DNA of 64,000 nucleotides from Teichococcus aestuarii (lineage in GTDB: Bacteria; Pseudomonadota; Alphaproteobacteria; Acetobacterales; Acetobacteraceae). Position 1 is the first letter of the stretch; every line of letters starts with the position of its first letter. Of this stretch, positions 22,036-30,511 are shown piece after piece. The notes beneath the pieces were generated by a model, which saw nothing but the letters and a program-made list of their open reading frames with translations, had not been told where the DNA came from and did not search any database. Location: positions 124,001 to 188,000 of the forward strand of contig NZ_PDOA01000004.1 of the NCBI RefSeq assembly GCF_003116135.1, in the 5' to 3' direction. Position numbers and translations under genes: made by a program.

Positions 22036-24132
22036 ATGCTGAACCGCCTTACCCTCCGCCCCATCCTCTACGGGGCCATCCTCCTGCTGGCGGCGCTGGC
22101 GCTGCTGCAGGCCGCCTCCGGCGCCTTCCAGGCCCTGCAGCAGCGGCAGACCGCGGATGCCGCGCTGGAGGCCAACGCCACCGCCGACCTGCTGCTGAGC
22201 GCGGCGGGCGCCTGGGCGGCGGAGCGGGGCGGCACGGCGATGGCGCTGGGGGCCGAGGCGCCGGCCAGCGCCGAGCGGCGGGCGGCGCTGGAAGCGCAGC
22301 GCAGCGCCGCCGACGGCGCCATGGCGCAGGCCGCCACCCGGCTGCGGGCGGGTGGCCGGGCCGCGGAGCAGGGCATGGCCCGCGCGCTCGCCGCCGCCAC
22401 CGCCGCGCAGGCGGAGGTGGCGGCGCTGCGGCGGCGGGCCGATGCTGCGCTGTCCCAGCCGCGCGCGGCGCGCGACGCGGCGCTGCCGGCGCAGTGGTGG
22501 GAGGGCATGCGGGCGCTGATCGAGACCTCGCAATCGCTGCGGCTGGCGCAGCACGCCTCGGGCGGCACCACGGAGGCCCGGCTGGCGGAGCTGCAGAGCC
22601 TGAAGCACTTCATCTGGCTCGCCACCGAGTTCCTGGGGCGCGAGCGCGGCATCGTCGCCGGCCTGCTGGCCCGCGGCGCCCCCATCTCCCTGGCGCAGCT
22701 GGAGCTGCTGGCCACCCATCGCGGCCAGGTGGAGACCGCCTGGGCGATGATCGAGGCCGAGCTGGAGAGCGGCGGGCCGCGGACCGTGCAGGCCGCCGCC
22801 GCCGTGCGGGAGCGCCTGTTCGGCGCCTTCGGCCAGCTTCGCCGGGCGGTCTATGCCGCCGGCACCGGCGGCCAGCCCTACCCCGTCTCCGGGGAGCAGT
22901 GGTGGCAGGAGGCCACCGGGCTGATCGAGCAGCTGCGGGGGCTCAGCATGGCGGCCGGCGCGGAGGCGGAGGCCCTGGCCCGGGAGGCTTCCGGCGCGGC
23001 GCTGGCCGGCTTCATCCTCTATGCCTGCGGGCTGGGGCTGGCGGCGGGGATCGGCCTCGGGGCTTGGCTGATGGTCTCCCGCCGCGTGCTGCGCCCCCTG
23101 CTGGCGATCACCGTGGCGATGCGGCGGCTGGCGGAGCGGGATTTCGGCATCGCCATCCCGGGGCAGGGGCGGCGGGACGAGATCGGCGCCATGGCGGCCG
23201 CCGTCCAGGTGTTCCGCCACAGCATGATCGAGGGCGAGCGCCTGGCCGCCGCCCAGCGCGCCGAGCAGGAGGAGAAGGCCACCCGCGCCGCGCGGGTGGA
23301 GCGGCTGGCCCAGGGCTTCGAGCGCGATGCCGGGCAGCTCGTGGAGATGCTGGCCGCCGCCGCCACGCAGCTGCAGGCCACCGCCCAGGCCATGCGCCAG
23401 GGCGCCGCGCAGGCGGATGAGGGGGCGGGTGCCGCGGCCGCCTCGGCGGCGGAGGCCAGCGGCAACGTGCAGACGGTGGCGGCGGCGGCGGAGGAGCTTG
23501 CCACCTCGGTGGCCGAGATCGCCCGCCAGGTGGAGCGCTCCACCACCGTCTCGGCCCGCGCCGCGGAGGATGCGCAGCGCACGGATGCGACGGTGCGCGC
23601 CCTCTCCGCCGCCGCCCAGCGCATCGGCGACGTGGTGGGGCTGATCAGCAGCATCGCCGGGCAGACCAACCTTCTGGCGCTCAATGCCACGATCGAGGCG
23701 GCCCGCGCCGGGGAGGCGGGCAAGGGCTTCGCCGTGGTCGCCTCCGAGGTGAAGAACCTGGCCAGCCAGACCGCCAAGGCCACCGAGGAGATCGCGGCGC
23801 AGATCGGCCAGATCCAGCAGGTGACGCAGGAGGCGGTGCAGGCCATCCAGGGCATCGCCGGAACCATCGGCGAGGTGAACCAGATCGCCGGCGCCATCGC
23901 CGCCGCCGTCGAGGAGCAGGGGGTGGCGACGCGGGAGATCGCCCGCAACGTGGCGCAGGCCGCCAGCGGCACGCAGGATGTCACGCGGCACGTGGTGGAT
24001 GTCTCGCAGCGTGTGGGCGAGACGGGCGGCGCGGCGCAGGATGTGCTGGCCGCCGCCGGGGAGCTGTCCCGCCAGTCCGAGACGCTGGGCCTCCAGGTCG
24101 GCACCTTCCTGCGCGGCATCAAGGCCGCCTGA
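22036..24132 (+). CDS. Methyl-accepting chemotaxis protein
   Basis: 698-residue receptor. TM1 (about 10-30) and TM2 (about 318-345) bracket a roughly 290-residue, all-helical, Ala-rich periplasmic domain whose ligand is unknown; it resembles nitrate/nitrite-sensor-like helical bundles only in general character. HAMP lies at about 345-400. The signalling domain has the hairpin tip [20 protein letters not shown] and the preceding E-rich coiled coil. There is no C-terminal CheR-tethering pentapeptide. It is the only receptor in the window, 7 kb from the che operon. The 115-bp leader contains ATAAAGAAG and GCGCAG, a weak sigma-28-like arrangement. Confidence 0.93.
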
Positions 24133-28034: not shown

Positions 28035-28988
28035 ATGCCGGCGATAGCATCGCCGCAGGGGCGGAGAGACGAGACGGTGCAGGTTCCCGGCATACGGCGC
28101 ACGGTGTCGCGCATCCTGGCCATGGTGTTCTGCCTGGGGCTGCTGGCGGGGCTTGGCGGCTTCTACCTGCTGCTGCAGGACCGCGCGCTGGGGCAGGCGG
28201 CCTCCGAGGCGCGCATCCTGCTGCGCTCGGCGCTGGCCATCCGCGGCTACACGGCCGAGCACATCTTCCCCAAGCTCACGCGGCTGGAGGATGGCGCCTT
28301 CCACGCCGAGACGGTGCCCTCCTTCGCGGCGCAGACCGTCTTCCGCATGGTGGCCAGCGAGTACAGCGCCTACACCTACCGCGAGCCGGCGCTGAACCCG
28401 ACCTCCAGCGCCGACCTCGCCACCCCCTTCGAGGTGGAGCTGATCCAGCGCTTCCGCGCCGATCCGCGGCTGGCGGAGCTGAGCGGCGTCCGCCCCACCG
28501 ACACGGACCGGCTGTTCTACCTGGCCCGCCCCATCCGCATCACCCAGGAAGGCTGCCTGACCTGCCACAGCACGCCGGAGCGGGCGCCGCCGGCCATGCT
28601 GGCGAAATACGGCACCGGCAGCGGCTTCGGCTGGCAGATGAACGAGGTGGTGGGCGCCCAGGTGCTGACCGTGCCGGTGACGCAGGGGCTGAAGGGCTCG
28701 CTGGAGCTGGTCGGGGTGCTCGGGCTCGGCCTCGCGCTGATCTTCGGCCTGGCCTATGTGGCGCTGGTGCTGGCGCTGGACCGCATGGTGATCCGCCCGC
28801 TCGGCGCGCTCAGCCGCGCCGCCGAGGCGGCCAGCCAGAGCGGCGACCCGCGCCTCGGCCTGCCGCGCGCCGGCGCCGGCGAGATCCGCCGGCTGGCGGA
28901 GTCGATCGACCGGCTGCGCATCTCGCTCGGCAAGGCGATGGGCCGGCTCGGCCGCGAGGCGGCGCCGCGCCCGGAGGCCGGCGATTGA
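28035..28988 (+). CDS. DUF3365 (Tll0287-like) heme-c membrane sensor protein with HAMP
   Basis: 317 residues. TM1 (about 26-48) is followed by an extracytoplasmic domain of about 180 residues matching the Tll0287-like/DUF3365 fold: RGYTAEHIFPKL, EYSAYTYREPALNPTS, and a single covalent heme site CLTCH (Cys174-His178). TM2 (about 222-248) leads to a HAMP-like segment (RMVIRPLGALSRAAE) with no output domain. Such proteins are thought to be redox or gas sensors. ATG 28035 is used; GTG 28077 is an alternative. The stop overlaps the TTG start of the channel gene (TTGA), so the two are coupled. Confidence 0.78.
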   Translation: MPAIASPQGRRDETVQVPGIRRTVSRILAMVFCLGLLAGLGGFYLLLQDRALGQAASEARILLRSALAIRGYTAEHIFPKLTRLEDGAFHAETVPSFAAQTVFRMVASEYSAYTYREPALNPTSSADLATPFEVELIQRFRADPRLAELSGVRPTDTDRLFYLARPIRITQEGCLTCHSTPERAPPAMLAKYGTGSGFGWQMNEVVGAQVLTVPVTQGLKGSLELVGVLGLGLALIFGLAYVALVLALDRMVIRPLGALSRAAEAASQSGDPRLGLPRAGAGEIRRLAESIDRLRISLGKAMGRLGREAAPRPEAGD

Positions 28989-30511
28989 ACCCGCGCCCCG
29001 CCGCCGCCACAGCCGGCCTGCCCGGCGGGCTCTGGCCGCTGGCGCTGCTCGCCGCCGGCAGCGCCGGCCTGTGGCTGCTGAGCTGGCTGGCCGAGGACCA
29101 CCTGCTGCTCGGCCACGGCCCGGTGCAGGCGGGGCTGCGCATCGGCGCCACGCTCGGCACCGCGCTGCTGGTGGTGATGGCGGGCGGCCGCGCCGTGCTC
29201 GGCCTCGGCCTGTCCGCCGGGCTGGGCCTCGAGCCCACGGGGCTGCAGCGCGCCATCGCCTACAGCGTGCTCACCTTCGCCGCCTCGGCCGTGGTGCTGG
29301 CCTCCTTCGGCTTCGACATCACGGCGGTGCTCACCACCTCCGCCATCCTCACCGCCGCCGTCGGCCTGGCGCTGCAGCCGACGCTCGGCAGCCTGATCTC
29401 GGGCGTGGCGCTGCACATGGACCGTGTGCTGCATGTGGGCGACACCATCGTGCTGGACGGGCGGAAGGTGGAGATCGTCCGGCTGGACTGGCGCACCGCC
29501 ATCGGCCGGCGGCGGGACGGCACCACCATCGTCATCCCCAATGCGCGCATCTGCAACGACACCATGGTGGTCTATCCGGCGGGGCAGCCGGTGCGGCAGG
29601 ATTCCCTCTTCCCCGCCCCCGCCAACGTGCCGCCGCAGCGCGTCTCGGAGCTGGTGACGGCGCTGATCACCGACTTCCCGCAGATCGACGCCGCGCGCCC
29701 GGTGATGGTGATGCTGGAGGGCTACGACCCCGGCAGCGCCCTGGCGCGCTACCGCGCCCGCTACTGGATCCGCAACACCTGGGACGGGCCGGAGATCGAC
29801 AGCGAGGTGCTGCGCCGGGTCTGGTACGTGTTCCAGCGCCACGGCATCCCCTGGCCGGTCTCGCGCCTCTACGAGCCGGGGCAGCGCCGCGTGGCGGAGC
29901 CGGGCCTCGCCCCCGGCGGCCGGCCGCTGGAGGAGACGCTGGCCGTGCTGCTGCCGCCCGGGCCGGAGCGCGAGGCGCGGGCGCGCCGGCTGGCCGAGGC
30001 CGGTCGGCTGCTGCTCTACGCCCCCGATGAGCGGCTGATCCTGCCCGAGGCCCATGCGGGCGGGCAGTTCCTGGTGCTGGCGGGCCATGTGCGGGCCGAG
30101 GATGAGGGGGCGGGAATGCTGGCCGAGGTCTCGCCGCCGCCGCCGCTGCGGCTGCAGCGCCTGGGCCGCGCCGCCACGCTGCGCCGCATGGCGGACGCGC
30201 TGGCGCGGCAGATCGGCCCCTATGCCGAGCATGCGGTGCGGCAGGCCGCCGCGCGCTCCTCCAGCCTGGCCGATCTGTGCCGCGAGGTGGCGGAGGAGAT
30301 CCCCGACCCCGCGCGCCGCGCCGCCTTCCTGGCCGAGCTGGACGTGGCCGAGGCGCCGGCGCAGGGCCCCGGCCACCGCTTCCGCGCGCGGCGCGACGCC
30401 GCCGGCCGCCTGGTGGCCGACCCGCCCCTGCGCGCGGTGGAGGAGGTGGCGGTGCTGGCCCTGCCCGCCGCCCTGGAGGGGCAGCTCGGCCGCCTGTCCC
30501 GCGCCGGCTGA
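28985..30511 (+). CDS. MscS family channel with C-terminal cyclic-nucleotide-binding-like domain
   Basis: 508 residues. Four predicted membrane spans occupy about 12-140; the pore helix and beta domain follow (AVGLALQPTLGSLISGVALHMDRVLHVGDTIVLDG), then IGRRRDGTTIVIPNARI and the mixed C-terminal cage domain to about 310. Residues about 338-400 (LLLYAPDERLILPEAHAGGQ, FLVLAGHV) resemble a cNMP-binding beta roll, as in bCNG channels; the phosphate-binding cassette is not clear. The last 100 residues are unassigned. TTG 28985 is supported by GGAGG 6 nt upstream and by the TTGA overlap with the heme sensor gene. Confidence 0.8.
   Translation: MNPRPAAATAGLPGGLWPLALLAAGSAGLWLLSWLAEDHLLLGHGPVQAGLRIGATLGTALLVVMAGGRAVLGLGLSAGLGLEPTGLQRAIAYSVLTFAASAVVLASFGFDITAVLTTSAILTAAVGLALQPTLGSLISGVALHMDRVLHVGDTIVLDGRKVEIVRLDWRTAIGRRRDGTTIVIPNARICNDTMVVYPAGQPVRQDSLFPAPANVPPQRVSELVTALITDFPQIDAARPVMVMLEGYDPGSALARYRARYWIRNTWDGPEIDSEVLRRVWYVFQRHGIPWPVSRLYEPGQRRVAEPGLAPGGRPLEETLAVLLPPGPEREARARRLAEAGRLLLYAPDERLILPEAHAGGQFLVLAGHVRAEDEGAGMLAEVSPPPPLRLQRLGRAATLRRMADALARQIGPYAEHAVRQAAARSSSLADLCREVAEEIPDPARRAAFLAELDVAEAPAQGPGHRFRARRDAAGRLVADPPLRAVEEVAVLALPAALEGQLGRLSRAG

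Follow-up and report, generated by a model that had tools for sequence, protein, structure and literature searches.

Is the membrane channel encoded behind a predicted heme-c sensor the output module that the sensor itself lacks? The question is raised by two genes of Teichococcus aestuarii which are located in a 64,000-nucleotide stretch of contig NZ_PDOA01000004.1, referred to here as the window. An earlier reading of this stretch, made from the sequence alone, had proposed that redox or gas sensing outside the membrane by the first protein gates a MscS-type channel formed by the second. Papers linking DUF3365 with mechanosensitive channels were not found in the literature searched.

The two-gene unit and its predicted heme-c sensor

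The pair is positioned at 28077-30511 on the forward strand. A LacI-type gene upstream of the sensor gene is divergent and a purN-like gene downstream of the channel gene is convergent, and thus the sensor and channel genes form an isolated two-gene unit. The sensor gene (28077..28988, +) specifies a 303-residue protein for which PF11845 and HAMP matches and transmembrane prediction give the order TM1, periplasmic Tll0287/sCache_heme domain, TM2 and HAMP. Its likely start is the GTG codon at 28077, with the ATG codon at 28035 as a possible alternative; the alignment of relatives, which bears on this choice, contains no conserved residues N-terminal to the VQVPG segment. The channel gene (28985..30511, +) encodes 508 residues with membrane helices, a MscS pore and beta domain, and a CNB-like roll that is split by a STAC-like insert. 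It begins with TTG at 28985, and this codon shares the tetranucleotide TTGA (28985..28988, +) with the TGA stop codon of the sensor gene. A Shine-Dalgarno-like GGAGG sequence (28973..28977, +) is situated 7 nt 5' of the TTG start. The sequence-only reading was correct in noting the TTGA overlap that couples the two genes, but described the products as translationally fused. As the open reading frames are separate and overlap by 4 nt, a protein fusion is ruled out: there are two proteins, and the gene overlap, which is seen also in relatives, represents translational coupling. The GC3 value is 0.97 for both genes, and dN/dS values of 0.20-0.35 determined against the nearest relative indicate purifying selection on each. 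A scan of the locus for sigma-70 promoters and terminators found none. The window also includes a gene for an MCP chemoreceptor with a NIT nitrate/nitrite-sensing domain (22036-24132), which precedes the sensor gene by ~4 kb.

The sensor matches the Tll0287-like family PF11845 over residues 36-200 (28182..28676, +) with an E value of 4e-35 and a score of 121.9 bits compared to a curated cutoff of 24.1. This DUF3365 or sCache_heme domain is flanked by transmembrane segments at residues 13-31 and 214-232, and contains a putative c-type heme attachment site, CLTCH (28554..28568, +), which is the single heme site of the protein. The two cysteines and the histidine of this site are invariant in 13/13 sensors that are linked to a channel of the type described here. 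In the 303-residue form, C160 and C163 of the motif are the only cysteines in the periplasmic domain, and an axial Cys therefore is absent. The HAMP match at residues 236-284 (28782..28928, +) is weak in the window sensor (20 bits, under the Pfam cutoff of 25), but HAMP was matched in 12 of the 13 linked sensors with a best E value of 8e-9. The protein terminates ~20 residues beyond HAMP in a region that includes an LRxSLxxAM/L segment common to kinase-paired sensors. An output domain is lacking and HAMP is the sole cytosolic part, so that the initial description of a DUF3365/Tll0287-like membrane protein with one CLTCH site, a HAMP-like end and no output module is upheld. The host genome encodes CcmF, which functions in heme c attachment.

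The DUF3365/Tll0287 family comprises heme c Cache (sCache_heme) sensors (PMC12889525, a 2026 preprint). A HAMP-bearing member from P. azotoformans that is devoid of an axial Cys forms an NO complex with a slow off-rate, and a stand-alone member with Cys ligation appears redox-active instead (PMC12889525). The window sensor is similar to the former in its PF11845 domain with CXXCH, in its TM-sensor-TM-HAMP layout and in the absence of an axial Cys, but differs in possessing a channel partner: text searches of PMC12889525 for a mechanosensitive channel, a Ser/Thr kinase or an operon partner found none. By analogy, NO is probably the ligand of the sensor, with redox state as the alternative. A redox relay, in which the heme protein acts outside the membrane as a sensor or carrier of electrons and the channel answers this redox signal instead of NO, would agree with the redox-like behavior of stand-alone family members. 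As these members are Cys-ligated, the Cys-free HAMP-bearing protein acts as an NO sensor, and the window sensor also is Cys-free, such a relay is improbable.

The MscS-type channel and its split tail

The channel matches the MscS family PF00924 at residues 134-194 (E 6e-8, 33 bits compared to a cutoff of 20.2), and aligns with E. coli MscS structures over residues 28-295 in phmmer searches (E 1.5e-13). Structure comparison of the AlphaFold model with MscS structures gave Z values of about 13-13.6 with alignment extending to residue 292. Confidence in the models is moderate, with mean pLDDT values of 70.7 for the whole channel and 75.6 for the tail alone. Membrane helices are predicted at residues 17-38, 46-79, 86-108 and 112-145, with low confidence in parts; they occupy 29033..29419 (+) and include a pore helix (AVGLALQPTLGSLISG) that resembles TM3 of MscS in the phmmer alignment. 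The MscS beta and alpha/beta cytoplasmic cage follows at 29384..29860 (+), as judged from PF00924 and MscS structures. Whereas the pore helix and cytoplasmic cage align with those of E. coli MscS, the window channel possesses an additional N-terminal helix, a proline (P132) at the G113 position, a tail of ~210 residues and a partner sensor. Within the pore helix (29354-29380, residues 124-132), A124 and P132 correspond in the phmmer alignment to L105 and G113, respectively, of E. coli MscS, and the seal residue L109 is retained as L128. The pore may be gated differently from that of MscS.

AlphaFold models of both the whole channel and the isolated tail show beta strands followed by four helices and then by further strands. 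CNB domains head the match list of a fold search with the tail. Residues 305-506 of the model match these domains with Z values of 8-9.5 and 104-113 paired residues, including PKG I CNB-B (Z 9.3-9.5) and a CRP/FNR protein, of which 104 residues superimpose with an rmsd of 3.2 (Z 9.5). As the strands on both sides of the helices align with CNB domains, the tail is a CNB roll that is split by a helical insert, with the first half of the roll at 29897..30097 (+) and the second at 30365..30487 (+). In the models the insert immediately precedes the point of the roll at which the phosphate-binding cassette would lie. The cassette itself (G-E...R-A) is absent, and Pfam gave no PF00027 match in the channel. 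Thus, the cNMP-binding-like roll of the sequence-only reading stands as a fold (CNB Z 9.5), but not as an intact roll, since it is interrupted by the insert and is without the cassette.

Channels of similar general architecture are known as bCNG channels (Caldwell 2010, as cited in PMC4560390). The MscS pore and C-terminal CNB fold are common to the window channel and to bCNG or MscS-CNB channels, including relatives L009, L010 and L111-L113; the window channel differs in the missing cassette, in the roll that is split by a STAC-like insert and in the constant heme-sensor neighbor. The shared fold and architecture would suit a ligand-gated channel of the bCNG type whose roll accommodates cAMP, cGMP or some other small ligand and which the sensor only modulates. 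This explanation is the least probable of those weighed here. The phosphate-binding cassette is absent in 13/13 channels linked to a sensor and present in 4/4 unlinked MscS-CNB outgroups tested, and canonical cNMP binding by the roll is rejected on this basis. Gating by cAMP or cGMP, which had been entertained in the earlier reading, therefore is unlikely. Moreover, the roll halves evolve faster than both the MscS part and the insert, with the latter more constrained than the halves (dN/dS 0.26 and 0.17 vs. 0.42 and 0.34).

A natural Tll0287-HAMP-cNMP_binding fusion was noted on plasmid pA of the cyanobacterium Kovacikia minuta CCNUW1 (L153:3983-5560). The fusion matches PF00027 with 79.6 bits, its cassette is intact, and the gene adjoins apparent phage-tail-like genes. 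Thus, Tll0287-HAMP and cNMP_binding modules have been joined in evolution at least once.

Conservation of the pair and the domain shared with kinases

Genomes were sampled at the levels of family, order, class and phylum. A full-length channel was found in 13 genomes of three families, namely the window and twelve others, of which ten have a channel that is 29-83% identical to that of the window along its entire length and the remaining two one that is ~41% identical within the aligned part. Conserved adjacency of DUF3365 and bCNG/MscS genes had been set in the sequence-only reading as a test of the proposed pairing. A Tll0287-HAMP gene is located directly upstream of the channel gene and on the same strand in 13/13 of these genomes, and the proposal was not refuted. 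The two genes overlap by 4 bases (TTGA, ATGA or GTGA) in eight genomes, are within 16 nt of each other in four, and are separated by 142 nt in one. Pairwise distances between the sensors correlate with those between the channels with a Mantel r of 0.96, a value as high as which was produced by none of 5000 permutations. The other neighbors (LacI, purN and purM) are common only to the closest relative, and thus it is the pair that is conserved and not the region. Outside the class, a sample of 165 genomes from across the phylum yielded no further example of the channel, nor was one found on plasmids.

Sensors of this type also are paired with kinases. Of the 30 top-ranking Tll0287 loci in the family, 29 encode HAMP-ending sensors with an effector immediately downstream, which is a Ser/Thr kinase in 23 cases and a channel in six. 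Kinase and channel therefore exchange one-to-one behind the sensor. In a maximum-likelihood tree of the sensors, channel-paired and kinase-paired proteins are placed on two sides of one branch with support of 100/99. Within one genus, some species have the sensor with a kinase and others have it with a channel. Named plasmid records from Skermanella, Rhodovulum, Caballeronia and Paraburkholderia contain the kinase version, and five kinases in named plasmid records, each with two domain copies, fit the sensor-kinase pattern.

At their C-termini the partner kinases carry a helical domain of ~55 residues, which bears an (I/L/V/M)GPxA motif and typically is present twice. An HMM constructed from 17 kinase C-terminal segments and anchored on the GPxA motif matches channel residues 397-446 with 37.5 bits compared to a maximum of 11.4 in 4000 shuffled tails. 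The matched region is the insert in the CNB-like roll (residues 395-451; 30167..30337, +), for which the models of both the whole channel and the tail predict helices at residues 395-410, 414-424, 428-436 and 442-451, with an IGPYA motif at residues 410-414 between the first and second helices. Blind searches for the domain in 40 relatives and 289 genomes of the class, in which a limited number of candidates was scored per genome, identified ten real proteins (four channels and six kinases), all ten of which are encoded directly behind a Tll0287-HAMP sensor. Within the set of proteins recovered here, the domain thus specifically marks partners of a Tll0287-HAMP sensor, although these searches may have overlooked distant relatives of the domain that occur in a different context. 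A further match to the STAC-like domain (L130, E 4e-5) was discarded as the composition of the open reading frame is antisense-like.

No named domain was found at the insert in Pfam or NCBIfam, whether in the channel or in the kinases. When profiles of 16 kinase and channel segments or of 26 segments were compared with 177,635 PDB sequences, Af1502 (5A1Q) was the best match with marginal E values of 0.068 and 0.13, respectively, over 22-23 residues. The match spans helix 1 and the IGPIA motif, and no shuffled version of the aligned Af1502 segment scores as high as the segment itself. The founding STAC structure is that of Af1502, in which four helices form a bundle and an LGPx(x)A motif joins the first two; its gene is translationally coupled behind that of Af1503, a receptor whose only cytosolic portion is HAMP (PMC4834066). 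The window pair resembles Af1503 and Af1502 in the receptor that ends at HAMP, the partner coupled downstream, the domain with four helices, predicted in the case of the window, and an (L/I)GPx(x)A motif, and the membrane-transport context. In contrast, Af1502 is a stand-alone archaeal protein of 68 residues, whereas the domain is built into the channel in the window and occurs in two copies in the kinase version, and the match is marginal. In the SLC5-STAC histidine kinases CbrA and CrbS, STAC is carried by a membrane transport protein, as is the STAC-like insert in the window; in CbrA STAC packs on the SLC5 transporter domain and is a proposed coupling element (PMC13022988). The transporter in these proteins would signal to a kinase within one chain, whereas in the window the signal would pass to a MscS channel from a heme receptor that is a protein of its own. 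A CbrA-type STAC sequence, sought via PutP on plasmids and in 300 kb of pNGR234b, was not found. The insert is best described as STAC-like in view of the marginal match combined with the motif, the predicted helices and the genomic context. The further 100 residues of the tail that had been considered unknown consist of this helical insert, which also occurs in the kinases, and of the second half of the roll behind it.

Additional arrangements of the sensor were observed. One Tll0287 protein (L038, G156:C125) lacks a HAMP end and has neither a kinase nor a channel downstream, which fits the idea that HAMP and a partner go together. A shorter kinase of a different subfamily (L129; G442:C672, 2583-3740) has one STAC-like domain and is again behind a Tll0287-HAMP sensor. 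On a plasmid of Rippkaea orientalis PCC 8801 (L149:3971-4891), a HAMP-ending Tll0287 sensor is followed only by short hypothetical genes without a recognizable STAC-like gene. On plasmids of Skermanella, Caballeronia and Paraburkholderia (L147, L150, L151 and L152), sensors with STAC-like kinases are located in or beside type VI secretion clusters that include tagF, tssM, tssH and tssB/C, accompanied in two cases by a gene for a PP2C phosphatase. This context suggests a heme sensor heading a PpkA-like kinase pathway.

The exchange of kinase and channel behind like sensors, together with the domain common to both, explains the pairing of sensor and channel. Comparisons of the sequences thus provide good support for the original proposal that the channel is the missing output of the sensor: linkage occurs in 13/13 genomes, a kinase takes the same position elsewhere, the domain is shared with these kinases, and distances among the sensors parallel those among the channels. 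Partners in an operon do not have to touch, and the MscS fold and pore are intact, so that the two proteins may instead be co-regulated without contact in response to a common nitrosative, redox or osmotic stress, with the channel serving as an ordinary mechanosensitive valve and the sensor acting elsewhere. We regard this explanation as unlikely, if less so than the redox relay, because the stop and start codons overlap in 8/13 genomes, the sensor is without any output, the channel exchanges with a kinase in exactly the same position, and the domain was found only on these two kinds of partner.

Proposed coupling of sensor and channel

The output-less sensor, the 13/13 pairing and a domain that otherwise is found on sensor-paired kinases make the locus look like a gas- or redox-controlled two-protein channel. 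We consider it fairly probable that the pair specifies a receptor-gated channel in two parts, in which the HAMP/AS2 portion of the sensor acts on the STAC-like domain and sets the opening of the pore. The sensor would be a dimeric membrane receptor with covalent heme c on its periplasmic sCache domain, responding to NO or, less likely, to redox state. A change in the state of the heme would alter the Cache domain and cause the HAMP helices to rearrange. As the sensor lacks an output domain, these helices must act on a partner, which would be the co-translated channel of the MscS family. The AS2 end of HAMP would act on the STAC-like insert, and the CNB-like tail then would move as it would upon ligand binding in a bCNG channel, thereby gating the pore and setting its open probability. 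In ordinary relatives of the channel, a cyclic nucleotide or tension alone would take this role, and related sensors would use a receiver domain of this kind, as a rule present twice, to control a Ser/Thr kinase. Beyond the conserved pairing we infer each of these steps, including physical contact, gating and the ligand.

MscS channels are heptamers and HAMP receptors are dimers, a stoichiometry that is awkward for direct coupling. Furthermore, the C-terminus of the channel should hang below the cage and far from the membrane, which makes the reach of HAMP a difficulty for direct contact. A more specific version of the receptor-gated channel is held tentatively, at somewhat less than an even chance: a two-part NO-gated bacterial channel in which an extracytoplasmic heme c receptor gates a MscS-type pore directly through HAMP-STAC contact, without a second messenger, and in which STAC-like domains are general receivers for output-less HAMP receptors.

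Heme Cache receptors, HAMP-only receptors with a STAC partner and bCNG channels are known kinds, and a report of the combination seen here was not found in the literature searched. The system bears on two questions, that of HAMP receptors without outputs and that of the function of STAC domains, and gives each a concrete partner. The receiver domain occurs on kinases or on the channel, and the carriers recognized here all are behind such a receptor. If the sensor gates the channel, this would be, to our knowledge, the first bacterial channel controlled directly by a separate heme receptor; it would also illustrate how a cyclic-nucleotide-gated channel can be rewired to a protein signal through an insert in its ligand roll.
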